IMG/VR virus record: IMGVR_UViG_3300025079_000003
Coordinates: 1 to 64,000 of that record
Source of the DNA: a virus
Strand: one strand, 5' to 3'
Length of the DNA stretch: 64,000 nucleotides
Below are positions 12,134-58,600 of the stretch, in pieces. How positions within the stretch are numbered: position 1 is the stretch's first letter; every line of letters starts with the position of its first letter. The translations under genes and the position numbers were made by a program. Below the pieces are notes generated by a model. The model searched no databases, was not told the DNA's origin, and saw nothing but the letters and a program-made list of their open reading frames with translations.

Positions 12134-12529
12134 ATGAGAAAAATAAGATGGTGGATACCAGGTAACGTACCCTCTAGTAAAAATGGAAGACGTTGGACAG
12201 GTAAATACTTTATTGCTAGCAAAGCTGTAATGAATTATAGAAAAGCTACTAAAGATATATATTTAAAATATACTGAGGATTTTAAGCAAGAACTAGAGAA
12301 GTTAGAATTACCAGTAAAAATATCTTTTGAATTTATCAGAGGCAGCCGTCATAAGTTTGACTATATAAATCCTGCACAGACAGTGCAAGATGATATGGTT
12401 AAGTATGGGTGGATTGAAGATGATAATGCTGAATATATAATTCCTGCATTTGAACAATATACATATGATAAAGAAAACCCTGGTGTATGGATAGAACTAA
12501 TTTTAGATGAAGAAAATAATATCACTTGA
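12134..12529 (+). CDS. rusA: RusA-like Holliday junction resolvase
   Basis: The 131 aa protein has the RusA length and pattern: the N-terminal strand with IPGNVPSSKNGRR, then RGSRHKFDYINP with Asp76, then VQDDMVKYGWIEDDNAEY giving Asp86/87 and Asp96/97. Clustered acidic residues of this kind bind magnesium and cut four-way junctions symmetrically. In a phage this resolves recombination intermediates and branched DNA before packaging, in line with the Sak4-like and SSB-like genes upstream. It overlaps the next gene by 23 bases. Confidence 0.85.
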   Translation: MRKIRWWIPGNVPSSKNGRRWTGKYFIASKAVMNYRKATKDIYLKYTEDFKQELEKLELPVKISFEFIRGSRHKFDYINPAQTVQDDMVKYGWIEDDNAEYIIPAFEQYTYDKENPGVWIELILDEENNIT

Positions 12530-12821
12530 TGAGTTTTTTATGCTAAAGAAAATGATCTCAGCTTCCAAAGAAGACTTAGAAGTTGCTTTGGCTATATGGA
12601 CTACCCAGTTTAAAGATAGAGAAATTTTAGATAGATTAATGTGTAAGGCATTAGCTTTTGATAAAAGAGTAAACTTCTCTATTGCTGTAGAGTATACTTT
12701 TACATACAAGGGATACAATTCTATGTCTGATATGAGTACACATAAAATACATGCATATATAAATGGAAAGAAACTAAATGATGTATATAATAAAATATTA
12801 AAAAAGATAACAGATGATTAA
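12507..12821 (+). CDS. Hypothetical protein, 104 aa
   Basis: The gene starts inside the resolvase gene and ends inside the next, so it is read from the same transcript. The 104 aa product is helical and basic with no known domain; the C-terminal half (NFSIAVEYTFTYKGYNSMSDM) is aromatic and beta-like. There is no signal peptide or membrane segment. Confidence 0.55.
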   Translation: MKKIISLDEFFMLKKMISASKEDLEVALAIWTTQFKDREILDRLMCKALAFDKRVNFSIAVEYTFTYKGYNSMSDMSTHKIHAYINGKKLNDVYNKILKKITDD

Positions 12822-13977
12822 TATACAAGATCAGGTTGCTAGAACAACTAAAACTCTAATATTTGATGAGCCCTTTTATGGGCTCTTTTTGATTGGTATC
12901 AATAAGAAGTACAGTTTACATATACCTACTGCTGGTGTAAGCAAACATGGTATTGGTATGCAATTGACTATAAACCCAGAGTTCTTTACAGAGCTCAAGC
13001 CGGAAGAAAGATATGGCTTAATAAAACATGAGTTATTACATATAGCTTTTGGACACTTAATTTTAAGAGACAAGTATTCTAATCATAAACTATTTAATAT
13101 AGCTGCTGATTTAGAAATTAACCAATACATATTGGAAAGCAATCTACCAGAAGGAGGATTGTTATTGTCAAGTTTCCCAGAGCTTAATTTACCTAAAAAA
13201 GCAGGTACAAGTAAATATTATGAACTTTTACAACAAGCACAGCAAGATGGTACAAGCCCTACGTTAGATTCTTTAATGAGTCAAATGGATGGTACTACAC
13301 CACATTGTCATAGCACATGGAATGAGTTTAATGATTTATCTGAAGCTGAGAAGAAGCTAGTAGAAAAACAAATTGAACATCAACTAAAAGAATCTGCTGA
13401 ACAAACCATTAAAAGATCTGGTACGGTACCTGGTGAGTTAGCTGATCTTATAAGGAAGCTTACACATGTTGAGCCTGCTAAATTTGATTGGAAAGGATAC
13501 TTAAGAAGATTTGTTGGTAATTCTAGTGTGGTGTATACTAAAAAGTTAAGACGTAAGTATAACAAACGGTATGCAGCTAATCCTGGCCTTAAAATTAAGT
13601 TTAAGAATCATATACTCGTTGGTGTTGATACTAGTGGTTCAGTCAACAATGAAGAGTTAACAGAATTCTTTAGTGAATTAACACACATGCACAAGACAGG
13701 CCACAAAATTACCGTAGCACAATGTGATACACGCTTAGGAAGCGTGAAGGAATTTAAACCTAATCAAGATTGGGAAATACATGGTCGTGGTGGAACTAGC
13801 TTTCAACCAGTTATTGATCACTACAATGAAAAGAAAGGGCAATATACAGCTCTAATATATTTAACAGATGGTGAAGCATATGCACCTGAAGATTGTCCAA
13901 AGAATACCTTATGGTGTTTGAGTAGTATATCTCAGATGAATGATGAGTTACCAGGAAAAGTAATAAAATTTAATTAA
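12814..13977 (+). CDS. Metallopeptidase-VWA fusion (DUF2201 type)
   Basis: The 387 aa protein joins two domains. Residues about 20-130 hold a zincin-like site, HELLHIAFGH (72-81), with the NIAADLEIN segment typical of the DUF2201 N-terminal domain. Residues about 265-387 form a von Willebrand A-type fold with an intact metal site, DTSGS (272-276), followed by the conserved GRGGTSF and LTDGEA strands. Proteins of this type work with MoxR-type AAA+ ATPases, here the very next gene, as chaperone-like machines that remodel or cleave target proteins. The target is unknown; a host factor or a virion precursor is possible. A perfect hairpin GAGCCC/GGGCTC followed by TTTTT lies at codons 19-26 and looks like an intragenic terminator. 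Confidence 0.8.
   Translation: MINIQDQVARTTKTLIFDEPFYGLFLIGINKKYSLHIPTAGVSKHGIGMQLTINPEFFTELKPEERYGLIKHELLHIAFGHLILRDKYSNHKLFNIAADLEINQYILESNLPEGGLLLSSFPELNLPKKAGTSKYYELLQQAQQDGTSPTLDSLMSQMDGTTPHCHSTWNEFNDLSEAEKKLVEKQIEHQLKESAEQTIKRSGTVPGELADLIRKLTHVEPAKFDWKGYLRRFVGNSSVVYTKKLRRKYNKRYAANPGLKIKFKNHILVGVDTSGSVNNEELTEFFSELTHMHKTGHKITVAQCDTRLGSVKEFKPNQDWEIHGRGGTSFQPVIDHYNEKKGQYTALIYLTDGEAYAPEDCPKNTLWCLSSISQMNDELPGKVIKFN
12868..12890 (+). other. Terminator-like hairpin inside a coding sequence
   Basis: GAGCCC (12868-12873), loop TTTTAT, GGGCTC (12880-12885), then TTTTT. It has the form of an intrinsic terminator but begins 55 bases into the metallopeptidase-VWA gene. It could limit read-through into the 12.8-19.4 kb genes unless translating ribosomes melt it. 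Confidence 0.55.
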
Positions 13978-13984
13978 TAAAAAA

Positions 13985-15253
13985 ATGGCACAAGTAAATT
14001 TAAACGTAACAGAATTAAAAGGTTTTGTAAATCATATAATAACTAATAATAGATTTCTACAACAAGGAGGAAAACATCCTGTATCAGTAGAAGTAGTAGG
14101 TGAATCAGGTATTGGTAAAACCTCAAGTATTGTTGAACTAGCATCAGAAAATAATCTGAAATTTGTTAAGTTAAACTTGGCTCAGATAGAAGAGCTAGGT
14201 GATCTTGTTGGCTTTCCAGTACGTCAGTTTCAAATGTATAAAGAAAAGATAGTACAACCAAAAAACAATAATGTAAACATGGTAACTGCAACACAAAGAG
14301 CAGCAGGTACTAGTCTAGCTAATCTAAACTCTTCAGTAACTAAAAAAGTAGGAATGTGGGTTGATGAGTTGGCTGTACAAGAGTACTTAAAGCAGGGTTA
14401 TAAAATGACAGGTAAGAATAGAATGTCTTATTGTGCTCCAGAGTGGATTGCTGATGCAAAGGCCGGTGGTATCTTATTACTAGATGACTGGAACCGTGCA
14501 GATACAAGGTTTATTCAAGCAGTTATGGAATTAATAGACAGACAAACATATATCTCATGGACTTTACCAAAGGATTGGCATATTATACTTACAGCTAACC
14601 CAGATAACGGAGACTACATGGTTAATACTGTAGACAGTGCACAGAAGACTAGATATATTACTGCAAACTTAAAGTTTGATGTAAATGTATGGGCACAGTG
14701 GGCAGAGGGTGCAGGTATTGACACAAGATGTATTAACTTCTTACTGTTGAATCCAGAACTAGTAACTCAAGAAACAAATGCAAGGTCTATTACAACATTC
14801 TTTAATGCTATATCAAGTTTTGATAACTTTGAAGATAATCTAAGTATTATACAAATGATTGGTGAAGGTAGTGTTGGTGATGAGTTTGCATCAATGTTTA
14901 CAACGTTTATAAATAATAAACTAGATAAGCTGGTTACTCCTAAAGATTTATTGACACATGATAATGAGTCATATATTCTTGGTGAGTTAAGAGGTTGTAT
15001 AGGAGAGGATGATAGTTACCGTGCAGACATTGCATCAACGTTATCAACTAGGCTAGCTAACTTTGCAGTTGTATATTCAAAAGAAAATACAATAAACCAA
15101 AAGATTACTGACAGACTTATATCATTATGTACAAAAGATTATTTTACTAATGACCTTAAGTACTTGATAGTTAGAACAATCTTCAGTGGTAATAAACAGA
15201 AGTTTAATAAAATGATGATGAATCCAGAAATAATTAAAATGACAATTAAATAA
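13985..15253 (+). CDS. MoxR-type AAA+ ATPase
   Basis: The 422 aa protein has Walker A GESGIGKT (39-46), Walker B ILLLDDWNR (163-171) and a sensor-1 region ILTANPDNG (about 201-209) followed by arginines. This is the AAA_5/MoxR class, whose members pair with VWA proteins (RavA-ViaA, NorQ-NorD) to activate or dismantle complexes. Between Walker A and B there is an insertion of about 80 residues that probably binds the partner. The gene starts seven bases after the metallopeptidase-VWA gene and one base before the next unknown, so these genes most likely act together. What they act on cannot be told from sequence. Confidence 0.82.
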   Translation: MAQVNLNVTELKGFVNHIITNNRFLQQGGKHPVSVEVVGESGIGKTSSIVELASENNLKFVKLNLAQIEELGDLVGFPVRQFQMYKEKIVQPKNNNVNMVTATQRAAGTSLANLNSSVTKKVGMWVDELAVQEYLKQGYKMTGKNRMSYCAPEWIADAKAGGILLLDDWNRADTRFIQAVMELIDRQTYISWTLPKDWHIILTANPDNGDYMVNTVDSAQKTRYITANLKFDVNVWAQWAEGAGIDTRCINFLLLNPELVTQETNARSITTFFNAISSFDNFEDNLSIIQMIGEGSVGDEFASMFTTFINNKLDKLVTPKDLLTHDNESYILGELRGCIGEDDSYRADIASTLSTRLANFAVVYSKENTINQKITDRLISLCTKDYFTNDLKYLIVRTIFSGNKQKFNKMMMNPEIIKMTIK

Positions 15254-15254
15254 A

Positions 15255-16292
15255 ATGGCAAATAAATCAGTATACCAGGTTTATAGTACTGATGCTTTGA
15301 CACACTTTGACCTAACTAGTGATCCCAAATACGGGATCCTAGTTGGTAATGAGTTTGAAGAAGTATTATGTACTCAAGACCAAACAACATATGAGAAAAT
15401 ACACAGCATATTAACTGTCCCTACAGAAGATGGACAAACTTTTAGAAATAAAAAGAAAGCTTTTATATTACCTAAGTGTAAGGTATCACAAGATAGATTA
15501 AAAGCAGCTTTAAAAGAGCATAGTATAACTGTAACTAATGATTATGAAAAAGCAGATTTAATTGTAGGTCATGATTCTATAGCTGATAGTTTGCAAAATG
15601 GTAATAGCATTGCCTCTACACTTATGTTAACTAAGTTATGGAACTATGAACTTACTGGCGGATCAAGTCAGATCACTAGTGTATTAAATACACAAATACA
15701 AAATTTAAACTGTCTAGCAATAATTACAGATAAAATTCTTGATAAAATTAGCTATTACAAATTAGATGTAGAACAGGATAGTTTATATGATAGTTGGATG
15801 ATAACAGGTATGGCTATGAACATAGCTCATCTTATTGAAACTACTGATTTAAGTGTAATAGATACTGAAACCATCTTGCGTAGTTCATCAAATATGATTA
15901 CTTTAGATGAGCAATTATTAAAGGATCTTAAGTCTCAATTAAATACTAATCATTGGACAGATGATAAAGGTTTAGCAGCTAAAATTATACCTAGTATAGA
16001 TTATAAAACTAACTATCATCTACTGTGGGAGCTGGCTACACAATGTGGAAATTTATTCCATGACTTCAATAGAGATAAAGACTTATGGTTTTGGATTGAA
16101 GAGTCTAACCTGCGTACATTCAGCCGCAAGAGTGCACAGGACATGATCCTTTGGTTAGAAAAAAAAGAGTTACTTAATAAAAGAAACTTTAAACATTTAG
16201 AGCCAATAGTTAGACAAGAGATTAGTATACATAACAGAGACCTTTATACATTTAAAGTGGCTGTAAAAAAAGAATATTTAAAATACTTATAA
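15255..16292 (+). CDS. Hypothetical protein of the MoxR-VWA cluster, 345 aa
   Basis: The family is not known. Residues about 70-105 (ILPKCKVSQDRLKAALKEH ... KADLIVGHD) resemble the same region in the next gene (about 68-102), so the two look like diverged paralogues. This part has the rhythm of a small alpha/beta domain (basic residue, helix, strand, Asp-Leu-Ile). The C-terminal half is helical. Immediate linkage to the AAA+ gene suggests it is a client or adaptor of that machine. A 12-bp hairpin lies at 15314-15344. Confidence 0.6.
   Translation: MANKSVYQVYSTDALTHFDLTSDPKYGILVGNEFEEVLCTQDQTTYEKIHSILTVPTEDGQTFRNKKKAFILPKCKVSQDRLKAALKEHSITVTNDYEKADLIVGHDSIADSLQNGNSIASTLMLTKLWNYELTGGSSQITSVLNTQIQNLNCLAIITDKILDKISYYKLDVEQDSLYDSWMITGMAMNIAHLIETTDLSVIDTETILRSSSNMITLDEQLLKDLKSQLNTNHWTDDKGLAAKIIPSIDYKTNYHLLWELATQCGNLFHDFNRDKDLWFWIEESNLRTFSRKSAQDMILWLEKKELLNKRNFKHLEPIVRQEISIHNRDLYTFKVAVKKEYLKYL
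15314..15344 (+). other. Start-proximal coding hairpin
   Basis: AACTAG (15314-15319) and GATCCC (15321-15326) pair with GGGATC (15333-15338) and CTAGTT (15339-15344): 12 bp with a single bulged T, loop AAATAC. It begins 60 bases into the gene at 15255. Confidence 0.6.
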
Positions 16293-16293
16293 A

Positions 16294-17451
16294 ATGACTG
16301 AAAATCAAAATTATATAATAAACTTTAGAACTGACCAGCAATTTTGGTCCAATGATCAATTGAATGAGAACGGTGTGTCTTCAGAAGAAGCTGGCATATT
16401 CTTATTGCATGGTGCCAGTTGGCAAATAACAGGTGATGACTTAGAATTCTTGGGGATTAATAAATTACCAAATGACTTTGACATTACTGATAAAAAACTA
16501 TATAGATATCCTAAGTTAGATTTACCTAGACAAAAGGTAGATCTTTTAAAAGAAAAGTATAATGTTAAAGTAATCAGAGATCCAAATAAATCTGATATAC
16601 AAATTACATCTCTTAAGTTTTTTAATAGTATAGCACATAGTAGTTGGAATAAATCATTTAGTAAAAATGATTTTTATGAAATATGTAAAGAGTTAGTTAA
16701 AAGAAATCTTTTGTCTGATAATGCAAAGAAATCTATTGGTAATATTTTACAAAATTCACATTCAACTGCTGTATTTGATATACGTTGTCATAAAAAAAAT
16801 TGGGAATCTGCACAAGCAAACAAATCTAAAACTTTAGAGGAGGTTGTACATGCAATGAAAAAAGAATTGGAAGGTAAATATTGCAAGAGCTATATAATCA
16901 AAGAACCTAAACACATTGATACATATAATGAGCTTATAAAAGCAAAGATGCTTGTTCTTGATAGAGATATAAGTAAAATATGTTCAGAAGGTTTGGCAAT
17001 ACTTACTAAAGATGATTATACTCAGATGTATAAAATGATAACAAGTAATGATATAGAAAATAGAACTTTGGCTTTAGAAACTTTAGCTAATTGTAATGTA
17101 GAAGCTTCTTTTGATGTTGTAGCTTTACTAATGTATTATGAATTTGAGTGGGTTAAATCAACAAGCAACTGGAATACTGTTAATGTTAAAGCTTTAAGAA
17201 ATAGATTCTCTGCTATGTCAACTTACGGAAACAGTAGTAATGGAAACTATCATACTCAGATTGTCATGTATTTATACAATGAAGGATACTTAACTAAGTT
17301 TGCAGCTGATACTATTAAAGAAAAAGTTTTTAGTAAAGTTTTAGCATCTGCAGGAATAGGTTCACCTACTTCAGCTTGGGAAATAAATCTTGATGATATA
17401 AAATTTAAAACTCCATTTAAAGAATCAATAATAGATAACATATGTTTATAA
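16294..17451 (+). CDS. Hypothetical protein of the MoxR-VWA cluster, 385 aa
   Basis: The gene follows its paralogue by one base. The N-terminal third (YPKLDLPRQKVDLLKEKYN ... SDIQITS) mirrors residues 70-105 of that protein. The rest is helical and lysine-rich, with a segment of repeated helices at about 225-275 (MITSNDIENRTLALETLANCNVEASFDVVALL) that could be a HEAT-like scaffold. No catalytic motif is visible. It is probably a structural or adaptor partner in the AAA+/VWA system; this is inference from linkage. A hairpin AGCTGGCA/TGCCAGTT lies at 16389-16420. Confidence 0.55.
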   Translation: MTENQNYIINFRTDQQFWSNDQLNENGVSSEEAGIFLLHGASWQITGDDLEFLGINKLPNDFDITDKKLYRYPKLDLPRQKVDLLKEKYNVKVIRDPNKSDIQITSLKFFNSIAHSSWNKSFSKNDFYEICKELVKRNLLSDNAKKSIGNILQNSHSTAVFDIRCHKKNWESAQANKSKTLEEVVHAMKKELEGKYCKSYIIKEPKHIDTYNELIKAKMLVLDRDISKICSEGLAILTKDDYTQMYKMITSNDIENRTLALETLANCNVEASFDVVALLMYYEFEWVKSTSNWNTVNVKALRNRFSAMSTYGNSSNGNYHTQIVMYLYNEGYLTKFAADTIKEKVFSKVLASAGIGSPTSAWEINLDDIKFKTPFKESIIDNICL

Positions 17452-18434
17452 CAAATAAAGAAAAGGAAGAGGTTTTCTATGCAAATAAAGATTTTTGCTT
17501 TAGTTACTCTTCCTTAAATAAATTATTATTTTCACCATCCTTATTCTATAAGGACTATATATTATTTGACCGTGAGGTTAGAACAGATAAACATCTGATT
17601 GAAGGAAAGCTTATACACTGCCTGCTATTTGAAGCAGAGAACGTTGATAAAAAATTCAGCGTTGTTCCAGGTAAAAGCCCAAGTGATAACATTAGAAAGG
17701 TATTAAAAGACATGTCTCTTCATACTGATGCAAAAACTCTAGCTAGCTGTGAGGATTTTATAATTTTAGATTCACTTAAATCTTTAAATCTGTATCAGTC
17801 TCTAAAAGCGGATGAGTCAAGAATAGCTAAGATAAGAACTGAAGACAATGAACCATATTGGAAGTTCCTGGGTAATAATAACATTGATGTTGTTGACCAG
17901 GATACTTTATCAAGATGTGAAGAAAGAGTTGAAGTACTTAAACAAAATAAAGATGTAATGTCTTTGTTTAATGAAGTACAAACAGACTTTGATTTAGATC
18001 CTATTGAAACATTTAGTGAGAAGTATCTAAAATCTGAACTAATTGATTGTGATTTTGGCCTGCACGGATATGTAGATTACTATTCAGTAGATACAGATAA
18101 AAAGGAAGTTGTTATATGTGATCTTAAAACAACAGGGAAGACCGTCTCTGAGTTTAAAGACACTGTAGATTTTTATAATTACTGGCTCCAAGCTGCTATT
18201 TATATGAAACTTGTTTATGATACTTTAGGTGATGATAAAGAAGAATATAATATAGATTTTAAATTCATTGTAATAGACAAATATGATCAGGTTTATGTTT
18301 TTGATGTATCAAATAATACAGTAAATGATTGGGCGGATGGTCTTGGAGGTGCAATAAATACTGCAAAATTTCATTATAATAGTAGAAATTACTCATTACC
18401 TATTGAATTCTTAACAAATAAGATTAAATTATAG
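17442..18434 (+). CDS. PD-(D/E)XK exonuclease
   Basis: The 330 aa protein has the layout of the phage PD-(D/E)XK exonucleases (DUF3799/RecB-like). FSYSSLNKLLFSPSLFYKDYI comes near the start, then EGKLIHCLLFE (54-64, motif I), and GYVDYYSVDTDKKEVVICDLKTT (209-231), in which Asp212, Asp227 and Lys229 form the metal site. The Asp-x-Lys variant replaces the common Glu-x-Lys. Such enzymes resect DNA ends to feed annealing recombination, matching the Sak4-like ATPase upstream. It overlaps the preceding gene by 10 bases. A 9-bp stem (17463-17471 with 17507-17515) encloses a smaller hairpin in codons 8-25. Confidence 0.8.
   Translation: MFITNKEKEEVFYANKDFCFSYSSLNKLLFSPSLFYKDYILFDREVRTDKHLIEGKLIHCLLFEAENVDKKFSVVPGKSPSDNIRKVLKDMSLHTDAKTLASCEDFIILDSLKSLNLYQSLKADESRIAKIRTEDNEPYWKFLGNNNIDVVDQDTLSRCEERVEVLKQNKDVMSLFNEVQTDFDLDPIETFSEKYLKSELIDCDFGLHGYVDYYSVDTDKKEVVICDLKTTGKTVSEFKDTVDFYNYWLQAAIYMKLVYDTLGDDKEEYNIDFKFIVIDKYDQVYVFDVSNNTVNDWADGLGGAINTAKFHYNSRNYSLPIEFLTNKIKL
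17463..17515 (+). other. Nested start-proximal hairpin
   Basis: AAGGAAGAG (17463-17471) pairs perfectly with CTCTTCCTT (17507-17515); GCAAA (17481-17485) pairs with TTTGC (17494-17498) inside. It begins 21 bases after the exonuclease ATG. Confidence 0.55.
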
Positions 18435-21965: not shown

Positions 21966-22283
21966 ATGACGTATAGACCATTGCCTGAAGGGACTACTAT
22001 TAAAGAGTCCCTTCTCCATGGCCTTGGATTATATTCTACTAAATCTATTAGTAAGGATACAGTCCTAGGCATATCACATATTAGAAATACAAAATATCAA
22101 AACAATTATATTAGAACCCCGCTAGGAGGTTTTATAAATCATAGTGACACACCTAATCTAAGAAAGATTGGTAGTGCTGAATCAAGAGATATAGAAGCAG
22201 GGGTTATGATGATCCAAACAACTAAAGACATCCTCCCCGGGGAAGAGCTAACACTTAAATATAATCTATATGCAATTGAATGA
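21966..22283 (+). CDS. Small SET-domain protein (putative lysine methyltransferase)
   Basis: The 105 aa protein is a minimal SET domain. HGLGLYSTKSISKDTVLG (18-35) matches the opening strand; FINHSDTPNL (56-65) holds the Asn-His of the cofactor pocket; and GEELTLKYNLY (92-102) ends in the tyrosine expected at the active site. SET enzymes move a methyl group from S-adenosylmethionine to lysine. Stand-alone SET proteins this small are known in bacteria and large viruses; the substrate here is unknown and could be a virion protein or host regulator. It overlaps the next gene by 14 bases. A perfect 9-bp hairpin (21987-22014) covers codons 8-17. Confidence 0.75.
   Translation: MTYRPLPEGTTIKESLLHGLGLYSTKSISKDTVLGISHIRNTKYQNNYIRTPLGGFINHSDTPNLRKIGSAESRDIEAGVMMIQTTKDILPGEELTLKYNLYAIE
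21987..22014 (+). other. Start-proximal coding hairpin
   Basis: GAAGGGACT (21987-21995) pairs perfectly with AGTCCCTTC (22006-22014), ten-base loop ACTATTAAAG. It begins 21 bases after the SET gene ATG. Confidence 0.6.
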
Positions 22284-38813: not shown

Positions 38814-39233
38814 TTAGTAACTTGCTTCACGCCTAACTACTTCTATAGCTCTGACCATTTTGTTATAGTCTACAGGGCATAATAGATCAAGCTTAGCTCT
38901 TGCTGTAAATTTAATGTATGCATCACCCTTTAAATATAATAGTAGGGTTGGTGCCATTCTAATTCTAAGTTCTTTTTTTAATTTTGGTGATGTTGCAATA
39001 TCACATCTATAATATGTGACTCCTTCAAGTTTGTTAATTTTTTCCCAGTCTTGAAACGCATTATCTTTATTAAACTCTGCCCAGAATTCTACTACAATTA
39101 CATCATCTTCTTCATTTTCATCAAAAGCTGATCCTGCTGTAACTTTTTCTTCAAAGTTTTTATCTGTTATCCATTCCTGAGACAGTACAGTTGTTGTTGT
39201 TAAAAGCAATAATACTGTAAGGAGATACTTCAT
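38814..39233 (-). CDS. Secreted thioredoxin-fold protein lacking the CxxC site
   Basis: The 139 aa protein starts with a signal peptide (MKYLLTVLLLLTTTTVLSQ, cut near residue 18-19). A thioredoxin-like fold follows: VIVVEFWAEFNKDNAFQDW lies where the WCxxC site is expected but has no cysteine, and IRMAPTLLLYLKGD carries the conserved cis-proline loop. It therefore cannot be a normal disulfide enzyme and is more likely a periplasmic binding or structural protein. It follows a one-TM protein and a beta-barrel gene, which suggests an envelope cassette. One hairpin AAAAGT/ACTTTT lies just past its end. Confidence 0.7.
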   Translation of the reverse strand: MKYLLTVLLLLTTTTVLSQEWITDKNFEEKVTAGSAFDENEEDDVIVVEFWAEFNKDNAFQDWEKINKLEGVTYYRCDIATSPKLKKELRIRMAPTLLLYLKGDAYIKFTARAKLDLLCPVDYNKMVRAIEVVRREASY

Positions 39234-39537: not shown

Positions 39538-40740
39538 TTACTTGAATGTATAATTTAATCCTAATGTTGTTTGAAACAGCTCACTGTCCCACATCTTAGA
39601 GTATTCTCCTTCCATAAATAACCCTATATTTTTATTTATCTTCCAGCCTAAGTTAGCACCAAAAGAATAGTCTGCCCATTGTTCTGGGTCATTATCCTCT
39701 ATCAATCCTCCCTTACCCCAATTATTTCTGTTTAAATAAGAAACAACCTCATCACCTTTTAAGTAGTTATGGTAAGGTAATATATAGTTAGCATATGCAT
39801 GCAACCAAAAGTTTCTTTTATAATGATAAAAGTCCATCCCTACTATTGGTGCTATCTCACCAAATGCAGGCACCTCTTCTAACATTTCTCTATTATAACG
39901 GTTCATTAAATCTGTAAATACAGTTTCTCTAAAATCAATATCAGAATAAGCTACAATAGTTCCATCTTGATCTCTCCATATCCAGTCTTGCATTTGTTGA
40001 CCTGTTTCAGCATCTGTGTATGTAGTAAGATGATCAGTATAACCATATTCAAACCCTAATGTATACCAATAGTTAACTGGATATTCTTGACCGTTAATTA
40101 TTTGTGTTTCATTTAACCAGATTTCAATAGGGTTATAACCATATGCACGGCTATGAGTTCTATAAATTGCACCTGCAGAGATACTAAACTTTTCTCCTAA
40201 AGGCAACCTTAATCTTGCTTCTGCTGATTCATAGGCTAGATTTATCTTTCCTACCTCTCTTGACTCAACTTTAAAGATGTGATGGTCTCCTGTATGCTTT
40301 ATGAAGAATCTGTGATTTCTAAACATCTCACCTCTCCAACGTTCTTTCTCCCAATGTAATTGATATTCTAAGCCTTTTAATGCAGAACTTGGAGCACTAA
40401 ACGCTAACTGTTCTTCTGTACCATCATAAAAGTTTCTTGGTTTTCTCTCGTAACTAAACCTTGCTAGCTTTCTAATACCAAAACCAATTCTATAATCATA
40501 TGGATAGTCAGGTGTATTGTCTACTACAACAGGTATATCATACAGACCATTGCCATCTCCTGTTCTTACAAAATAGGTTGACACATCTTCTTCTATAGAG
40601 TTGTTTATATCAACAGCTCCGTATACAGTACCATATTTAATAAAATCTTTATATAGGGATTTAAAAAATGGTGAACCATCTTGAGCAGAAGCACCATTCA
40701 TAACCAATATACACACTAATAAACTTACATATCTTTTCAT
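39538..40740 (-). CDS. Outer-membrane beta-barrel protein
   Basis: The 400 aa protein has a signal peptide (MKRYVSLLVCILVMNGASAQ, cut after residue 19-20) and then many alternating strands: RIGFGIRKLARFSYER, YQLHWEKERW, FSISAGAIYRTHSRAYGY, WYTLGFEYGYT, FWLHAYANYILPYH, SFGANLGWKINKNIGLFMEGEYSKM. It ends LGLNYTFK, close to the aromatic C-terminus read by the BAM machinery. It should be placed in the host outer membrane. A phage may use this to block receptors or exclude other phages, or it may be a virion protein; which one is not decided by sequence. The 93-base gap upstream shows only an AAGAACTT direct repeat. Confidence 0.75.
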   Translation of the reverse strand: MKRYVSLLVCILVMNGASAQDGSPFFKSLYKDFIKYGTVYGAVDINNSIEEDVSTYFVRTGDGNGLYDIPVVVDNTPDYPYDYRIGFGIRKLARFSYERKPRNFYDGTEEQLAFSAPSSALKGLEYQLHWEKERWRGEMFRNHRFFIKHTGDHHIFKVESREVGKINLAYESAEARLRLPLGEKFSISAGAIYRTHSRAYGYNPIEIWLNETQIINGQEYPVNYWYTLGFEYGYTDHLTTYTDAETGQQMQDWIWRDQDGTIVAYSDIDFRETVFTDLMNRYNREMLEEVPAFGEIAPIVGMDFYHYKRNFWLHAYANYILPYHNYLKGDEVVSYLNRNNWGKGGLIEDNDPEQWADYSFGANLGWKINKNIGLFMEGEYSKMWDSELFQTTLGLNYTFK

Positions 40741-46625: not shown

Positions 46626-49600
46626 CTATAAATTACATTTTTTAATTTGATCAATTAATTCTTGTGGGCTACCCCACATAGAGTTAGGATTCCTATCATA
46701 CAAATCTAATAAATCTTCTAAACTATTAATATTATTTTCTCTTTTAAAGTTTTTAACCTCTGTACTAAATGAACCATCTTCTATATTGCTATCCCAAAAC
46801 TCTGTTATTTCAGGATGACTAATAAAAGGATCAAACATATCTAACTGACCTATCAACTCCTGTCTATTCTCACTAATAGGAAGCTCTTCTACTTCTAATA
46901 TACCTAGTTCTTCAGAAGTAATATTGTCTGTTGCCTCTGCAATTGATGCCGCAATAGCATCTAATTCTGCAGTGTCTACTATATTTACACTATCTATAAT
47001 TACTGATTCGTCTGTTACATCCAGATTAATAGATTGATTACGGAATATTTGTGGTACAGTTTTACTTGTATCTTCTGTTTCTTTAACAACCTCTGGTGTG
47101 CTTTTTGATACTTCAGGTTTCTCCATCATTTGTTTTAGAGTAGGTCTATTACCAAACATAAATCCTGCACCAAACTGTAAAGGAGAACCTATCAAATCAA
47201 CTGATGTTTTTTCTTGATCATTTCTTTGATATATAGTTGATTCTATACCGGTCTGACGGTCTATAGTATCCATCCTTTTTATTGCAATTGAATCAGTTTC
47301 AGAATTAAACTTTCTTGGTAATAACTTAGCATTAGATGCAGATAGCAAATAGTTTTCTACAAAAGATGTCGTACCTCCAGCATCTGTAAATTCTTTAGAT
47401 CTTAAATATTTTTCTGTAGAATTAATTTCAGATAAATAGTCTTCTAGAACATACGGGCTAATTGATTCTAATAAACCACCCGGTGCTAATTGTAAACCAT
47501 CTTTAACCATAATATAATTTATAACAGTTTTTGCAAATTGTCTTGTATCAGGGTTATTGTATAATTTATTAAATGAGGTTTGTAGATCATATTTTTGTAA
47601 TCTATTTAGCTTTCTCCATGTGTTTGCTTGAGCTAGATACAAACCTGATCTATTACCCTTATCAGTTGGTTTGTATGTTGTAACAAAATCAAATAAAAAG
47701 AAATTGCCAGGATCACTTATTCTAAGTTGTTCTACTGCATGCCATACATTACCTTGTTCATTATCTTGTCCTGGATATAGTATACCGTTACTTAAAGGAT
47801 TATTTTTATCTATATTTTGATATGCACTTAATGTGACAAATGCTAATACATCTTTTTTAACTTTTGTTCTAACGGCCTCACTATTCTTATATAAGTTTGT
47901 ATCTAATCTTCCAACTAATTCTGATGTAATTCTTTTTACACCTGGTGTCTGTGATAAAAACATCTTTGGTAAAATATTTACATTTATGTCTGATAGTTGT
48001 TCAGATAATCCAGATAGATATGAACTACTCAACATATTTCTTACCTTTATAAAATAAGGATTTTTTATAAAATCATTTATGCTTTCTACCCTTTGAGAAA
48101 TACTATCAATGTTTTTTCCTAATCCATTGTTAAGACTTACTAGACTATTTAATTTAACCGTAAAATTAGATATAGTAATTACTTTTGCAAAAACCTGTAA
48201 GGCCCCTTGTAATTCAAGTACTTCTAAATTATCAGCTACTCCTCTTTCTAAAGCATCTTTATCAGGAACTATACCCTTTACTATTTTTCCTTTATCATCT
48301 CTTTCTATTAGATCATTTATTCTATCTCCAATAGAAGGAGATATACCATCACTATTATCAATTTGTCTATATATATCTTGTATAATTTTTTGATTTAAAA
48401 GTAGTATAGAAGTTTCTAACGGAACACCAAGTTGAATCATATTTGATAACATACGTGTAGCATGAGCGTTCAAACCTAACTTACTTACCAAAAACTCTTT
48501 AGCATTGTCTGTCATAGCAACTATTAGAGAAGACATTAAATCTTGTTTTCTCATTCCGTTTTCATTTAAAGTTCCACCAAAAGACTTATACTCTTTACCA
48601 TCAAGCTCAAACTTTAAAGTACCTAAACCTATTTTATATTCTTTAAATAAAGACAAATATAAATTTGGTGAAACTACTGAACCAATTGAAGCACCCTTAT
48701 TGTTTGTAAAAGCAACAGTTTGTCCAGTAAGGGTATCTATATCTTTACCTGCTTGGTTAGTTCTTTCTGAAAAACCAGGTAATTTTCTAACACTCTCCCA
48801 AACATTCTTTAATAAATCTAAGTTAGACGGTCTATAAGCTATTGGATATGTACCTGATGTTAAATAATCATTACTTACTAATTGACGTTTATAATCTACT
48901 AGTTTATTGCTTACAGGTGCTTCATAAGGAGCCTGCTTATTATCTTTTACAAATTGATTAAACTCACTTTGAGTAATAGGCATACCTAATACTTTTAAAG
49001 CACCAACAGCATTCTTACTAAAGCCAGCATTTTCAGCAGGTGTTTGATCTATATCAACTAATGAATCAGATATTATAACACCTTGTAGTTTATATAATTT
49101 TATAGCTTCAGAATATTGGTTTCCTGTTTCATTAACCTTTTTGTTTACATAATTAATATAACTAGAATAATTATTTTCATATGCTTTAAACTCACCTTTC
49201 TCTACATAAAACTCCTTCATGTGTATGTATGCTTGATCTATATCAAAATCTGCACCAGACACTTCTATAAGTTCATTTGAAAACATTGCTGAACCTCCCA
49301 TGAAGTTGGGTAAAAAATCTACAACCTTTACATTAAAGGCAGAATGATAGTCTTCACTAGGTATACGTACAGCATACATCTCACTAACTACATCAGGTAT
49401 AGTATTTTTATATCTTCTATATTTACTCTTATAAGCCAATAAGTCATTTACTTCTTTTGATTGAGGAGGCATAATTGCTTCAGAATATCTTTGACCTTGA
49501 TATTCACCACCTTTATATTCTTTTAAGTTATATCTTAAACGGTCTACTATAATAACACCTTCAGCTGGTAAAGGATCACCAGTGTTTAATTCTTCAAGGC

Positions 49601-52600
49601 TTCTATTATCTAATGTAAAGTTTCCATTAAGAAATTCATTTTCTCTTATTACTTCTTGTCTATCAGGAGTAACTTTACCATTAAAGGTTTCTATACTAAA
49701 TACTCTTCTGTATACATTCTTTCCTAATGATGATACTAATGCAACACTAGTTCCATTTACTTTTTCTTGAAAAACACCTTGACTAAAGTATGTCAAGAAC
49801 AGCTGTTCATATTTACTTATAGTATAAGGGTTATCTAAATTATATTTAAGTTGATTGTTTTCATCAGAACTAAAAAATTCAATTAGATTACTAGTTGATT
49901 GACCAGCCTGTAAAGAATTAACTGCATACTTAGAAAACAATACTAAGTTAGGACTTACTATCTTATTTAATTTTGATGCATCTATTTCTGATCTTACATC
50001 TTCTACATTAAATGTTAATTTAACTTTAGCATTATACTTTAATCTTGATCTATATTTTAAATCATTATTATAGTTTATAATTGTTTGTTGAATATCCTTA
50101 TTTCTAGGATCTTGTTCAGATGTGTTTAGAGTTTTCATCTGACTTTGTAAAGTAATCTGTTTTTTATTTGATGGATTAATTTGTTGTAAGCCAAAGTACT
50201 TAGCATAAATAGTTGTGGCATTGTTTGTAAAACCACTAGGTTGACCATTTAAATCACTAATAGGATTTAAATTTTGTTTCATCATTTTTAGTGCTGATTC
50301 AGGTGCTGCTATACTTACAGTTTGATTTTCTTTATCTAATTCTTCTAAGTTGACTCTTAAGTTGTGTAGTTTTTCTTGACCTGGCTTAGCAACCCACATA
50401 TCATCAGAGTTCTGCATAGATGTTAACTCTTTGGTTAAAGTAGTATAAGACATCTTTATATATGTTTCACCATCAAAATACGCATACTTTTTAGAATTTA
50501 ACATGTTGCCTTGAGATATAAGCTCACCAATCTCTTCCCATTGTAGAACTTCTCCTTGTTCAATTTTATTTAATGCAGCAGCTAATGCTGGTGTCATTTC
50601 ACCAATACCAAATTGAAAATGTCTAGTGGCTTTTACAGTACCATATACTTGTGCATCTGCAATCTGAATAGAATTTGAACTTAATCCAGACATTAATGTT
50701 GGCTCATTAAAAGCAACTAAATTTATTTTGTTTGTCTCATGCATTACCCCCAAACGTGGGTCAGTTAAATATGTTTCAGCAGGTATAAAAGAGTTATTAT
50801 TACCCTTTGCTCTTTTACTTTTATCAGTAAAGTCTTTTAAAACTTTAGCTTGATCACTTAAATAAAGCTCATTTAATGATTTAACATTTAAGTAATTATT
50901 AAAAAACACTTGTTTAAGGTTATAAATAGGATCCATGTCAATTAGATTATACATAGCTGCAGTTGACTTAGCAGCTTCTTTAACAGCTCCAGTAGTACCT
51001 CTACTTATACCACGTACAATTTTCTTATCTATTCTATTTCTAACGTTTAGTGTATCTATTAAGTTATCAAACTCATTAAACTTACTATCTAAGTTGGCTT
51101 CTAATTGTTTCTTAAATGACTTTTTATTTAGCTTAGCTGCTCTTAAAGCTTGTTCAAATGCAGCTGGCTCTTCTGAAAGTGCTTCTTTTATTAGCCCGCT
51201 TCTAGTATCTATATTTAAAAGTGTCTCATTATTGGCAAATGTTTTTGATCTAAACTCTCCAGTGTTATACCCTTCTATTACATCAGTAGTTCTATTTGGA
51301 CCATTCTCTCTTACTATTCTATTGTACTCATTCTCAACAAAATTATAAAAGGCCTCTAATACTTCATCAGTAATAACGTCTCTTCCTTGTATTTTTTCTA
51401 CTGCTTTTATAATAGGTAAAGTTGTTTGATCACCTGTATTTGAAGACTCCATAACTCTAATTAAATTTGGAGATATAGCAAATCTACTATCTGTACCATT
51501 TACAGGATTCTTAACCAGTACAGATTTCAAAGGTTTTCTATTAAGAGAATTGTAAAAAGCTAAATAGTTGTTTATGTTAGTAACTAAAAATTCAGCAGGA
51601 GTATATTTCCCATAGTCTGTACTCTTTAATGTTAAACTAGATTTTACATCTAAGTCAGCAGATAAACTTCTTAAAACTTTTGTGCCAGATATTCTAGATA
51701 TCTTTACTTGATTATTGTCTGCTAAAGCATTAAATGCAGGTGAGTTCAATAAAAAGTTATTACTTAAATAATCATCCTGTAATAATCTTGCCCTCTCACT
51801 TGCAGAGTTTAATGCTCTTGTCTTTCTTAAATTAAATGTTGGTTGTTGATGTGAATTAACTAAATCATTATTTGAATTCTTAAATACTGTAGCTCCAATT
51901 GTTTCATCAAATGATGCATTACCTAAAGCTAATTTTTTTAATTTGCTTTCTGCTCCCTCAGGTGAAAATAAATCTACTCCTTCTTTAATCAACTCAAAAA
52001 ACACCTCTATATCATTAAGTGTCATTGGTTGTACATCAGGATGAAAAGATAGCAATTGTTCTTGTGCTTTAGTAAGATTCTCTCTTGCCATAAGCCTACT
52101 ATAAGACATATAACCTGGACTAATAGAAATACCTAAATTATCAAATAAAAGTTTAGATAATTTTCTAGATCGTTCATTTAATGCATTGTTTCTTATTGTA
52201 GTTTTTTTAGGTCTTAACTCTGTTTGTAATGTAACAAGTGCTTTTAATGCATCCTTTCTTATATTTAAATCATCTTGCCATAACTGTAGCTTAGATGAAT
52301 ATCCTTCTGACCATGAGTCTAATTGATTATTAGAATCATCTCTTTGAGATGCTGAATGAACAATTGAATTACCCAACATATCTCTTTGAGTAAAAAACCA
52401 CTCTACTCTAAAGTTTGTAAATGAATTAAGTACTTTAATCAAAAAGTTTGGGTTAGTAATACCTTCAGGAAACTGTTCAAAAGTAAAGTCTTCTGTATAA
52501 CTCTCTGGCATATTAATACCTGAGTTTTCAAATATTTGGTTTACAACAGCTTCAGTCTGTGGATTAGTTTGTGAAAAAGCATACATAGCTTGTAGCATTT

Positions 52601-55600
52601 CTACTGGATCCTCAAGACCTTCTAATGATTTAAGCATTCCATTGTATACTACATTAGCATTAACAGGTACTGTAATAGGCGTACCATTAACTAAAGTAGT
52701 ATTACCAAAATAATCCTTTTCAATATATGTTACTGTTCCTATGTACTTTCTTACTGCAGCAGGTAAATTATCTAAACCACCACTAAGATATGTTTCTTTA
52801 CCATACTGCTGTACAGTTCTTAAACCTTCATTATCTATAAACTCATCATTTCTTTCTACTTGTTGTGCTGACTGTAGATCTATTATATCTAATACGTCTG
52901 TAACAGATTGTTTTATTTGAGGAATAAAATCTTCAAATGCTGCTGTAAGCAACTTAAGCATGTCATGCTCTTTGCTTCCTTCTAAAAATTGTGAGTTAGC
53001 ATTACTAAATACATCATATGTCTCAGCAAACTCATCAACTATAACATCTAGTTCTTCATCTTGATTGAACTTTAGCTTTTCTTCTGTAGGTATAAAATTA
53101 AATTTTCTATCTATTAACACTCCTGCCATAGAAGATATTATACCATTTGCTACAAAGCTTGGTACATATAGCTCACCTATACCAGCATTTCTATCTACCA
53201 TTTGATATGGTATAAGTTTGTTAGCTTCAACAGATGATCCTAAAGTAGTAAACTCATTTGTTGCTATAGGAGCAGATTGAAATTTACCTCCATCTATGTT
53301 TTCAAATAATGAAGTTAGTTCATTTTTATAGAATTGATTTAGTACTCCTTTAATCCAATCTAATATTTTTGTAAACAAAGATTTTACTTCTGAAGAAGTC
53401 TTAGTGTTTTTTGGTCCAGTTTTAAACAGCTCAAACTGATCTGCCATATATTCTTCAAAGTATTCTCTTTCTAATCTCTCTTGACTCATATTAGTATATG
53501 TATCAGCAGAGTTTCTAAATTTTTGTAATTCAGATGCTAGACTTTTTCCTTCCTTTCTTAGGTTGGCTCTTTGTTCTTTTCTGGCTATTCTTAAATACTT
53601 AGCTTGTTCTTGTGGCGTAAGTATCATTCTGTATACACCGTGGAAAGCCTCATGATATCTAAATGGACTATTTGCTCCTGTGTATATAGTTCCTGAAACA
53701 TCAAGTCCACCAGCTATATCATTTATGTTTAAAACAAATGATCCTACACGTGTACCTGTAGTTATTAAATTACTTCTTAGTGTAGCTATATCAGCTATAC
53801 CTATATAATCAGGTAATGTTTGTGAAGCCCATACAGAAAAAGAATCAATACTTTCTACATCAGTAGAGTTAAAAGATCCTTTAACAATCTTATTAGCACC
53901 TCTTAGTTCATCTCTTTTCTTAAATAAATCTTGTAGTTCCTTGTTTTCTTTATATGCTTGTCTTAATCTCTTCCTATTTGTAGGACCGTACTGATCTTCT
54001 AATTGAGCTTTTAATATGCTTATCTTAGTTAAAATAGAATTTAAATCACTTACCTCTTCTAAAACTTCTACCTCTTCTGCTATATCTGGTAATACTTCTA
54101 CATTCTCTGGTGCACTTTCTTCTATTAAAGGTGTGACAGATATGTTACCTTTAGATAACTCTCTTCCAATTGATTTAGGATTAGCTGTTGTTAAAAGTCT
54201 AAATCCTTTTCTTAATTGATTAGGGTCTATAGCTGTTTCCAAGTCTACTAAGAAATCAGTTATACTTGCGTCTTCTGCTATAGATGTTGTAAAGTTTTTT
54301 AAAGATATTGTACCCTCTCCTAAATTTTCATCTCCATTAATTTTATCTAACAAAAGTTGTATTAAATCTTGTGGTGATTTTCTTGTTTCTTCTGCAACAC
54401 CTAGATTAAGATCTGCCGGATATAAATATTGTGTCTTTCCTGTCTGCTTATATAATGCACCACCTAATGTTCTGTTTTCATTAGCTATAGCATCTTTAAC
54501 TCTCATTCTAATATTACCATACTGATCTACATCTAAAAATACTTTTCTTTTAGATCCAGGTTTGCTTGTTATAAATATTTTACTTAAAGTTTCTTTATTA
54601 AACTCTTCATTAAAGTTTATGTCTTTTGGTTTTTTATCTTTATCAAGATTGCTTTCTACAGTTGTCTGAGCTCTATTGATAAGTCTTAAAAGTTCTATGT
54701 CTAAGTCTACTTTCTGTTGTAATTTTGGTTTTGAAGTAACAACTGAATAAACTCCATTAGGCTGCTTAAGAACAACCATATATCTATTAGTTCCGCCCTC
54801 TACACTTTGTTTCCATAAGCCGTTTCTTTTTAATGCAGCTTCAGTCTCTTCTCTTAACACATCTAATGCATCACCTTCTAAATTACTAATAACTTTTGGT
54901 GCTGAATTATTTCCTCCTACACTAATATCATATATTAAATAGTTACCTAAACCATCAGAACTATATTTTAAATCTTTTAATGAAGTAAAAGTATTTGGTG
55001 ATGTATAGTTATCATAACCCTCAAATAAATTTATTCTTATTCCATCTGGTAATTCACCAAATATAGCCTCTCCTCTACCATCTTGATTAGCTAGTTTTTG
55101 TATTGCTTGATTTAAAACTGCAGCCTTAGCAAAATTTTCTTGTATATATTGTAGAGTCTGCACACCAGGTGATAAATTAGATTGAGAATCTATTTCCACT
55201 CCAGTTAAGTCTTTATCAAATTTAATTACACTCTTCATAAACTCTACATCAAAGTCATGTGGCATAACTGCTTTTCCATCTTTATCAAAAAAACTGAATC
55301 TTTGACTTGGTAAATATGCAAATACATTATTAGCTGATTCTTCTAGTCTAGTTATATCAGGATTTGTATCATATAAGTTATTGATCTTATCTATAACATT
55401 AACATCAATAACTTGTATTCCTATATTATAACTATTAGTATTCTCTTTTATATAAGGATTAGGTTTTAATCCATCAGCAGGTATTACATAATTTTTTGAT
55501 GGTGATTGTGTTACTGGTGTTATAAATAAATTTAATCCATTTAGTTCTTCTGTAGTTAAATTACTAATAATTAAATCTGTTCTTTCATTAGCACTGTCTT

Positions 55601-58600
55601 TAGGCTCAGTAAAATTATTTTTATGTGACCATGCCTCTATCATTTCATTAGGGCGTATTTTAGAATAAGTTTTACCTAAACTATCAAAATTAATTGGTGC
55701 TGCTAAAACAAAATTATTTATAAAGTCTTGTTCTGAAATAGGTATTGAGTTCTCTAGGTTAGTATAATAGTCATTACTAAACTTATTAAAAGGAATAATA
55801 AATATACTTTGTTGAGAGCCTTTATCAAATGATGTTTTACCTGTATTAACTACAAATACTTCCCCTTGCTTATTAATTATTCTTTCATTCTTACTTATAG
55901 ATAGCCCATTTATTCCACCAAATCTATATACTCCTCCTGTATCAACCTCTTTTTCTAATTTTTCAGCAGCTTGAATTGCATCAGCTTTTATACTATATAC
56001 ACCTAAACTATTGGCACCAATAATTTGTCTAAGCTCTTGAGATATCTTGTTACCTTTCTTATCTAGTATTGTATAAATAGATGTATTTGCTTTATCTCTT
56101 TTATTTATAACCTTTTCTTCTACATCAACTATTGCCCCTTCAAAAATAATATTTGAAGGCTTCTGTCTTACTGTTTGAAAAATAGACAGATTTAAATTTA
56201 ATTGATCTAGTATATTTAATATATCTGCATTCTCTGCTGCAGGTCCGTTTATAAAATCTTGAAAGCCTGTTTCATTTTTTATATCACTCTCTGTTGGAAT
56301 TAATTCTGCAACCTGACCATTAACCAATACTGGATATCCTTTTGACCATATTTTCTTAATAGCATCATAGGCTGTTTGTATGTTAATCCCAGCAGCGCTT
56401 TCTTTCCATTCTTCTATACTTAATGAATCTCTATTAGGTATAGCCTGATATTGTCTAAACTGGTCTTCTAATGTTCTATTTAATACAACAGAATTGATTG
56501 TTGGTATTACTTCTACATTTTCTATACCAGCATCATCTAAAATCTGATTAACATCCTTTGCACTCTCATCAGCAACTTCTTCTTGTGACCTCTCTGCTTT
56601 TGCAAGTTCTTCTGTTTGTAGATTATAACTATTTATTATTGGATTAATTATATTATTGATAATTATAGCATCTTCCAGTATAGATGGATCTAGTAATCTG
56701 CCTGCAAATAAATATGAATTTGACTGGTCTATTGAAGATGTTTCTCCTGTTTCTAAAAAAGCTTGAGTAGCTTCCGGTGTTAAATAAACATCTTCTGCAG
56801 CTAAACTATTTAGCATCTGGTTTTGTTTATCTAATACTAGCTGGGCTTTAGTTTGTTCTATTATTATTTGTTTTTGATTAGCCTCTAATACTTTAAAATA
56901 TTCTGCAGATCTATTTATTAAGTCTTCCATTTTATTAGGATCTAATAAATAATCTATAGTATTGTTAAACAAGAATGCATCTTGAGATAAAGCTGCGTAG
57001 TCTACTATTTCATTAATTGCATTATCCACTGCATCAGCATCAACAAACGTTCCTTTAGAAGCAGCTAATGAATTCAAATAGTTTTCTATTGGGCCCTTTA
57101 ACTTATTCTTTTTACGCTGATCAAAAAATCCTTTTGCTGTTAGATTATCATTATATACTTTATTAATTCTATCTAGATTCTTTTTCCTTCTTTTCTTTTC
57201 CTTAAGAGATTTTTTATTTCTCTTAATTGCAATCTCATCTAATCCAGATTCATTATTAGCATTTTGTTCTAGTATTAATATCTCTTGTTGTAATCTATCT
57301 ACTTCTACTTCTAAAGATTCTTTATCTAATAAAGGTGTAACATCATTAGCAGCCATATTACCAAACAATGGAGTAGACTCTAATGACTGAGCAATTTTTA
57401 CTTTTCTATTTAGTGCATCTTTAAATGCATTCTGAGTAAACATATAAAACATTTCTTGATGTTCATATGCCTTTTTTAATCTTTGCTCATCTCTATATTT
57501 TCTTGTTCCAGGCGTAAACATTTCTGGCTTGTATCTAGGTTTAAATATGCTTTTCTTATTATTAAACATATCACCATACTCAGTAATAAGATCTAATTGT
57601 TTTTGTATCTTTGATCTTACTTGTTCTATACTACCATAATCCTTTTTAGGAAATGCCTCACCTAAAGCTTTATCATCAAGCTGACTAAAATCTACCATCT
57701 CTTGTTGATAAAATCCTATTGAGCCTTTTTTATATTTATCATGTAAATTTTTAAACTCTAAGAAATTTCTACCATTAAAGTAATCATACTTATCATTCCT
57801 TGAAATAGCATCATCCATAGCATTGGATGTTTGTTTCATAGTTGACATCATTAGCTGATCATTATTTAAGATAGCATCTAAACCATCTACACCTTTTTCA
57901 GACATATCTTCTGATTGGCGTATAATATCTGCTATTACTTTTTCCTCTGCTGTTCTTGCGTTTGCATAATCCGCTCTAGAAGCTTTACTTCTCAAAGCAT
58001 AGAGTTTAGGAACTTGTTGAAATAAAACATTTTGATAAGGCCCAGCTAAACCACCCATCAAAAATCCGGATAAAAATGTATTTAATCCTTGTGCTGTAAA
58101 CTGATCCTGTATACCATCCATTGCAAATGAACCATATAAATTCTTTGTACCTGCACCAGGCTCTCTAAGCAAGGCACCATAGTAGCCTTCATTAGTTGCA
58201 GCAATAGCTTCTTGTGAAACTTCTTGTAGTCCCTCTGCTATTCCTGCTGCACCGTATCTTAACATCATACCTCCAAAAACTCTTGGAGCATTTTTTATTC
58301 CACCAGCTGTAAATTGTCTAACAATATTTGTAGGAGTAGGCATACCTAAAAAAGTTGCACCCTTTTGATAAGTTCCTTTTAAAGCTTTTCCTGTAACAGC
58401 ATCTACTAGTGGATTAGTTCTAAATACTTTTTCTGATAGATTCTTATATCCTCTTCTCCAACTTCCAAAGGCACCTCTTAAAACAAACTTGTTTGATAAA
58501 TATATTATACCAAAGTTTTGCATTTGTGTTCTAAATGCAGCTTGAGCAGCTTTTACTTTTGTATCAGATAGTTGATCTGCTGTAATAGCTTTACCAGGAT

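Follow-up and report, generated by a model that had tools for sequence, protein, structure and literature searches.

A fixed five-gene block joining a MoxR-like ATPase and a metallopeptidase-VWA protein to three related partners in crAss-like phages

Introduction

MoxR ATPases and the VWA proteins paired with them remodel protein complexes (PMC9976466, PMC13036017). A MoxR AAA+ ATPase with a metallopeptidase-vWA partner is known from jumbo phages through Iyer et al. (2021), who proposed that the two have a role in virion assembly and cited the Acidianus two-tailed virus, whose MoxR-vWA system is required for its tails (PMC7824862). Genes 24 and 25 of phage N4 are core genes of the N4 family, in which gene 25 is listed as 'vWFA domain' and gene 24 as 'unknown' (PMC4193335). 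Here we analyse a pair of this type, together with three partner genes, in a window of 64,000 nucleotides of viral DNA (positions 1 to 64,000 of IMG/VR record IMGVR_UViG_3300025079_000003, which has 67,259 bases).

An earlier note on this window had supposed that the use of a MoxR-VWA pair by a phage was undescribed, a view refuted by N4 genes 24 and 25 and by the jumbo phages: the pair itself is already known in phages. What is undescribed, as far as our search shows, is a fixed five-gene block in crAss-like phages in which the pair is accompanied by three paralogous partners with BRCT- or HEAT-like features; the crAss literature that we consulted (PMC7886860, PMC10136315, PMC10172136) mentions neither MoxR nor VWA. 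MoxR-VWA pairs are core genes in N4-like phages and widespread in others, and no function is established for them in the literature covered. A clade in which the pair is fixed in a replication operon with three partners, all as small, expressible proteins, makes the phage use of this machine testable.

Results

The five genes lie on the + strand in the order small (12507..12821, 104 aa), VWA (12814..13977), AAA (13985..15253), P3 (15255..16292) and P4 (16294..17451). The last four, with products of 387, 422, 345 and 385 aa, stand back to back exactly as the earlier note had read them, and they are indeed linked; as a four-gene unit, however, the block had been drawn too short, in that the upstream gene at 12507-12821 encodes a third paralogous partner that belongs to it as well. 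A neighbourhood survey, set beforehand as the test of this linkage, found it to be constant within the clade. The survey drew on about 240 IMG/VR loci, many of which represent overlapping stretches of a single contig; the counts are therefore not independent, and distinct proteins number about 90-105 per family. On these counts, small and VWA were linked at 244/244 loci, VWA and AAA at 249, AAA and P3 at 233, and P3 and P4 at all 230 assessable loci (230/230), and the departures from the small-VWA-AAA-P3-P4 order came from contig ends or intron-split genes alone. Genes of the block touch or overlap (median gaps of -19 to +12 bases), and at one locus additional DNA separates P4 from the exonuclease gene. 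As recovered by hidden Markov model (HMM) surveys of IMG/VR, the full order of the locus is Sak4, a gene in the SSB position, primase, RusA, small, VWA, AAA, P3, P4, exonuclease, two unknowns and PolB.

At the left end of the block, the small gene overlaps VWA downstream and, upstream, the flanking gene for a RusA-like resolvase (12134..12529, + strand), whose product matches PF05866 slightly under the cut-off (E 0.0021) and has a strong homologue at the same position in Cellulophaga phage phi14:2 (Crassvirales). At the right end, P4 overlaps the gene for a PD-(D/E)XK exonuclease (17442..18434, + strand; PF12705, E 1.5e-7). In phi14:2 and cr128_1, the gene annotated as RusA is followed directly by one unrelated open reading frame (about 90 aa) and then by the exonuclease gene; searches of the whole phi14:2 sequence and of 41 kb of cr128_1 found no homologues of VWA, AAA, P3 or P4. 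The block is missing between retained flanks in both phages and has thus been acquired or deleted in one piece, at a definite position. The idea that small is the ancestral neighbour gene was rejected, the open reading frames found there (92 aa in phi14:2, 90 aa in cr128_1) being unrelated to it.

This distribution bears on another account of the locus, in which P3, P4 and small take no part in the work of the MoxR-VWA pair and are distinct accessory proteins of replication that share a syntenic module with it. All adjoining genes are equally syntenic, and the pair occurs in other phages without P3 and P4, as this account would predict; nevertheless, the absence of the five genes as one contiguous stretch from phi14:2 and cr128_1, with both flanks kept, and the touching or overlapping of their reading frames argue against mere neighbourhood, which we consider improbable.

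The VWA gene encodes a zincin metallopeptidase domain (DUF2201_N) joined to a VWA domain (DUF2201), as seen in matches to PF13203 (E 1.5e-19; 71.1 bits against a cut-off of 23.2), to PF09967 (E 7e-15; 55.7 bits against 26.4) and, over residues 4-386, to phrog_1314 (E 7e-66). Its zinc motif, HELLHIAFGH, occupies residues 72-81 (13027..13056, + strand), and its metal ion-dependent adhesion site (MIDAS), DTSGS, residues 272-276 (13627..13641, + strand), completed by T328 and D352. Across 101 distinct relatives, H72, E73, H76, H81, N95, D99, D272, S274, S276, T328 and D352 are invariant, and the HExxH motif, the following His, the N-x-A-x-D motif and the MIDAS are retained in distant phages (Moorella phage, N4, PBS1 and others). 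The assignment to a MoxR-VWA type pair with intact zinc and MIDAS motifs, made in the earlier note, is thus confirmed, and judging by these residues the metallopeptidase domain looks active and may be proteolytic. The label 'HNH endonuclease', carried by phrog_1314 and RefSeq entries, was rejected, since Pfam and the motifs both identify a DUF2201 metallopeptidase with a VWA domain. That name is spread through RefSeq phage annotation, and the VWA members of phage MoxR-VWA pairs are often misnamed in this way.

Next to it lies the gene for a MoxR/AAA_5-like AAA+ ATPase, whose product matches phrog_1297 ('ATPase'; E 1.8e-34), Pfam AAA_5 (E 0.0015; 19 bits, under the cut-off of 22) and, among PDB profiles, midasin (E 6e-7), and which aligns with the MoxR-like ATPases of S-TIM5, PBS1, Vibrio, Alteromonas and Moorella phages. 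In 91 distinct copies, the Walker A motif (GESGIGKT, residues 39-46, 14099..14122, + strand; G39, K45 and T46) and the AAA+ sensor and arginine residues N205, R223 and R267 are invariant. The Walker B motif, LLLDD (residues 164-168, 14474..14488, + strand), has D167 and D168 in 91/91 copies, with Asp where the catalytic Glu normally stands; the other phage ATPases aligned have Glu there. The change from Glu to Asp is conservative and may leave remodelling function possible, but we call the protein 'MoxR-like'. A stretch of about 60 residues between Walker A and Walker B has no counterpart in the MoxR-like ATPases of other phages.

Both genes are split by group I introns in some members of the clade. 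In three contigs (L206-L208) an intron bearing a LAGLIDADG homing endonuclease gene lies between codons of HELLH in the VWA gene (L206, 4273-5405), and in two (L215, L219) an intron bearing a GIY-YIG homing endonuclease gene follows immediately after LLLDDWNRA, the Walker B region of the AAA gene (L219, 4499-5597). Rfam Intron_gpI matches with E 4.6e-20 in L219 and 1.6e-8 in L206, the latter under the gathering score. These positions are consistent with strong conservation of both sites. In part of the clade, a gene for an unknown protein of 128 aa stands between VWA and AAA (L206, 6322-6708; L219, 3578-3964), with weak similarity to Imm70 at most.

For P3 and P4, Pfam gave no match at gathering level, PHROGs, NCBIfam and PADLOC gave none, and neither did 50,697 phage records, for P3 even at E 10. 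Compared as single sequences by BLASTP, they resemble one another weakly (E 0.088), and profile-profile comparison of residues 55-115 gave E 0.0014, with 0/200 column shuffles reaching the score; with about 100 sequences per side, the same comparison reached E 0.00015. The region that the earlier note had seen them to share (about 70-105 and 68-102) is therefore real, and the resemblance extends to the helical C-terminal halves, which match in collinear order (profile-profile E 0.00048). By the same method, residues 3-38 of small match residues 235-272 of P4 in a helical HEAT-like motif (E 1.2e-5, probability 81%, 0/20 shuffles), and small matches P3 218-256 with E 0.002, a score unreached by shuffles. 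On these profile comparisons P3 and P4 are distant paralogues, and small is a third related partner.

AlphaFold2 gave confident models of P4 and P3 (predicted local distance difference test scores of 88 and 87, respectively), which have in common a strand-helix-strand-strand element at 68-105 followed by a helical C-terminus. When each model was searched separately against the PDB with Foldseek, both returned the BRCT domain of PARP1 with probabilities of 0.77-0.84 (P4 0.77), but with E values of 0.3-0.7, those of P3 being about 0.3-0.6; superposition on that domain (2le0) covered 44-46 columns at a root-mean-square deviation of about 2 Å. Pfam BRCT matched 7/40 P3 members, all under the gathering cut-off (E 0.0083-0.1), and no P4 members, and P4 had weak Foldseek matches to HEAT or alpha-Rep-like structures. 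A BRCT-like identity of residues 67-111 (15453..15587 in P3 and 16492..16626 in P4, both + strand) is therefore suggestive only.

Among viral models in BFVD, the P3 fold has four full-length Foldseek matches (A0A8S5QMV2, A0A6J5LXR8, A0A8S5TKB2 and A0A8S5TL70; probability 1.00, E 5e-7 to 2e-6, 9-14% identity). One of these is in a crAss-like virus and two are in one phage, ctz6O13; paired P3-like proteins thus occur also in a phage far removed from the clade. P3 and P4, which are known from distant phages by fold alone, here gain their first genomic context.

The genes of the block evolve at different rates. Because pairwise estimates of the ratio of nonsynonymous to synonymous substitution (dN/dS) are crude and dS is near saturation, their ranks are more reliable than their values: AAA 0.088, PolB 0.11, VWA 0.13, P3 0.34, small 0.59 and P4 0.65. 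Within P4, conservation is 0.76 in the BRCT-like segment, 0.72 at residues 276-304 and 0.35 at 107-215, with 0.51 for the whole protein, and residues 67-106 are its most conserved part. A slow AAA/VWA core whose fast, related partners retain conserved patches is in keeping with a remodelling machine that has adaptors for specificity.

The same contrast in rates could be expected if the block served host takeover or counter-defence, with P3, P4 and small recognising host proteins and bringing them to the AAA+/metallopeptidase core to be unfolded or cleaved. Partners that evolve far faster than the core would suit such a role, as would the absence of the block from related phages with other hosts, which is expected of a host-dependent accessory function. 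Yet no sampled member of the clade lacks the block, and its core evolves very slowly, which resembles a core function; no noteworthy match to defence libraries was found; and with dN/dS below 1, relaxed constraint may also explain the partners. We judge this role unlikely. That the block is itself a defence system was rejected, its PADLOC scores being trivial.

The source phage is crAss-like by its giant RNA polymerase and by its crAss-type replication block, and near-identical gene sets occur in IMG/VR contigs of up to 108-118 kb. The polymerase, a protein of 4387 aa (46626-59789, - strand), carries DFDID at residue 3514 and matches crAss-like phages exclusively; DxDxD is the RNA polymerase motif of these phages (PMC7886860). 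It exceeds in length the RNA polymerase proteins of phi14:2 and cr128_1, which have 2,000-2,400 aa. PolB, Sak4, primase, RusA and the exonuclease have homologues in phi14:2, and the genes for the last four follow the phi14:2 order. The viruses that carry the five-gene block form a large group, for the most part marine, with kinship to the gut crAssphage. Two contigs of the same clade (L182 and L183) have been placed in bacterial metagenome bins (Pseudomonadales and Campylobacteraceae), probably through misbinning.

Virion-packaged RNA polymerases are presumably shared by N4, AR9/PBS1 and the crAss phages, and we considered whether the MoxR-VWA pair is tied to them; as a rule this was rejected, since phi14:2 has a giant RNA polymerase and no pair.

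Elsewhere in the window, a gene directly after that for DNA polymerase (21966-22283, + strand) encodes a SET-domain protein of 105 aa (Pfam E 2e-9), possibly a protein lysine methyltransferase. A thioredoxin-fold protein (38814-39233, - strand) and a protein of 400 aa (39538-40740, - strand), both with signal-peptide-like N-termini, are encoded beside ribonucleotide reductase genes.

Discussion

We tentatively favour the view that the block encodes an AAA+ remodelling or proteolysis machine with dedicated adaptors, which is made together with the replication genes and acts on protein complexes around phage DNA. In such a complex, the MoxR-like protein would form the ATP-driven ring, and the VWA protein would be its cochaperone, bearing the metallopeptidase domain. 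Small, P3 and P4 would serve as adaptors for target recognition, holding on to the machine by their conserved BRCT-like or HEAT-like surfaces and binding targets by their fast-changing parts. Co-produced with replication and recombination genes, the machine would most likely dismantle or trim complexes around replicating phage DNA, and its candidate targets are the phage's own replisome or recombination proteins or DNA-bound proteins of the host.

A target among DNA-associated proteins is favoured because the block is placed in the replication operon and because the homologous pairs of N4-like, Rhizobium and Moorella phages have genes for a helicase or a DNA polymerase nearby. A more specific form of our proposal is that the block is a multi-adaptor AAA+ remodelling protease of crAss-like phages which acts on nucleoprotein complexes of replication and recombination through three quickly diversifying, paralogous specificity factors, a logic of an unfoldase with exchangeable adaptors that is undescribed in phages; in this form we regard it as doubtful.

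Several observations weigh against assigning the block such a role. The BRCT and HEAT assignments fall under formal thresholds, and the linkage is confined to one clade whose replication module is wholly syntenic, so that joint function is unproven by linkage itself. The pair also works elsewhere without P3 and P4, since HMM searches found no P3- or P4-like neighbours of the pair in N4, Moorella, PBS1, PA5oct, K64-1, Alteromonas, Rhizobium, Vibrio, Raoultella or S-TIM5 phages. Moreover, the genes around the pair in K64-1, PA5oct and S-TIM5 are structural or heat-shock genes, and a note of electrospray tandem mass spectrometry (ESI-MS/MS) is attached to the ATPase of PA5oct.

These last neighbours are what would be expected of a machine for virion assembly or maturation, in which the pair would serve as chaperone for structural proteins and trim them, with P3, P4 and small as its scaffolding or substrate adaptors. 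Such a role has been proposed in print for the homologous pair, with the Acidianus two-tailed virus as precedent (PMC7824862). In this clade, however, the block belongs to the + strand replication module, whereas the giant RNA polymerase and the large late-type proteins are encoded on the - strand; the N4-like, Rhizobium and Moorella loci flank replication genes; and the related crassvirus phi14:2 has none of the five genes and still forms virions. A part in virion assembly is, on this evidence, rather unlikely.

Comparison with described systems sets the block apart in its partners. The cellular pairs RavA-ViaA and NorQ-NorD and the DUF2201 pairs of Firmicutes resemble it in that an AAA+ protein works with a VWA cochaperone to remodel protein complexes, but RavA/ViaA and NorQ/NorD work on enzymes and cofactors and have no BRCT/HEAT-like partners. 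An adjacent VWA/MoxR pair of the DUF2201 type lies on a fecal contig (L192) that was matched by VWA and also has rpsF-ssb-like genes; the contig was dropped as a phage relative, being bacterial. The block is similar also to the MoxR-vWA-VMAP ternary conflict systems (Kaur et al. 2020, PMC7159879), in which the couple is joined by one or more extra proteins proposed as targets of its restructuring. There, the VWA proteins have C-terminal effectors and the loci belong to cellular immunity, whereas here the VWA protein has a metallopeptidase domain, the partners have no family match and the locus is that of a phage; a general Pfam scan of P3 and P4 members gave no VMAP-type match, a dedicated VMAP profile not having been run.

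Among phages, relatives of the VWA protein occur in 368 records, many of them N4-like. Gp24 and gp25 of N4 (Schitoviridae) are homologous to the AAA+ and VWA proteins of the window (HMM E 3.6e-4 for AAA and 9e-18 for VWA), but their gene order is reversed, and small-like neighbours were, like those of P3 and P4, not found beside them. The block is also like the pair of the group 2.2 jumbo phages (PMC7824862), in which a MoxR AAA+ protein stands next to a VWA protein whose N-terminal domain is a zincin, and of which the K64-1 representative is homologous by profile search. From that pair the block differs in that VWA precedes AAA, the genes lie in the replication module, Asp occupies the Glu position of Walker B, and three additional paralogous partners accompany the pair.

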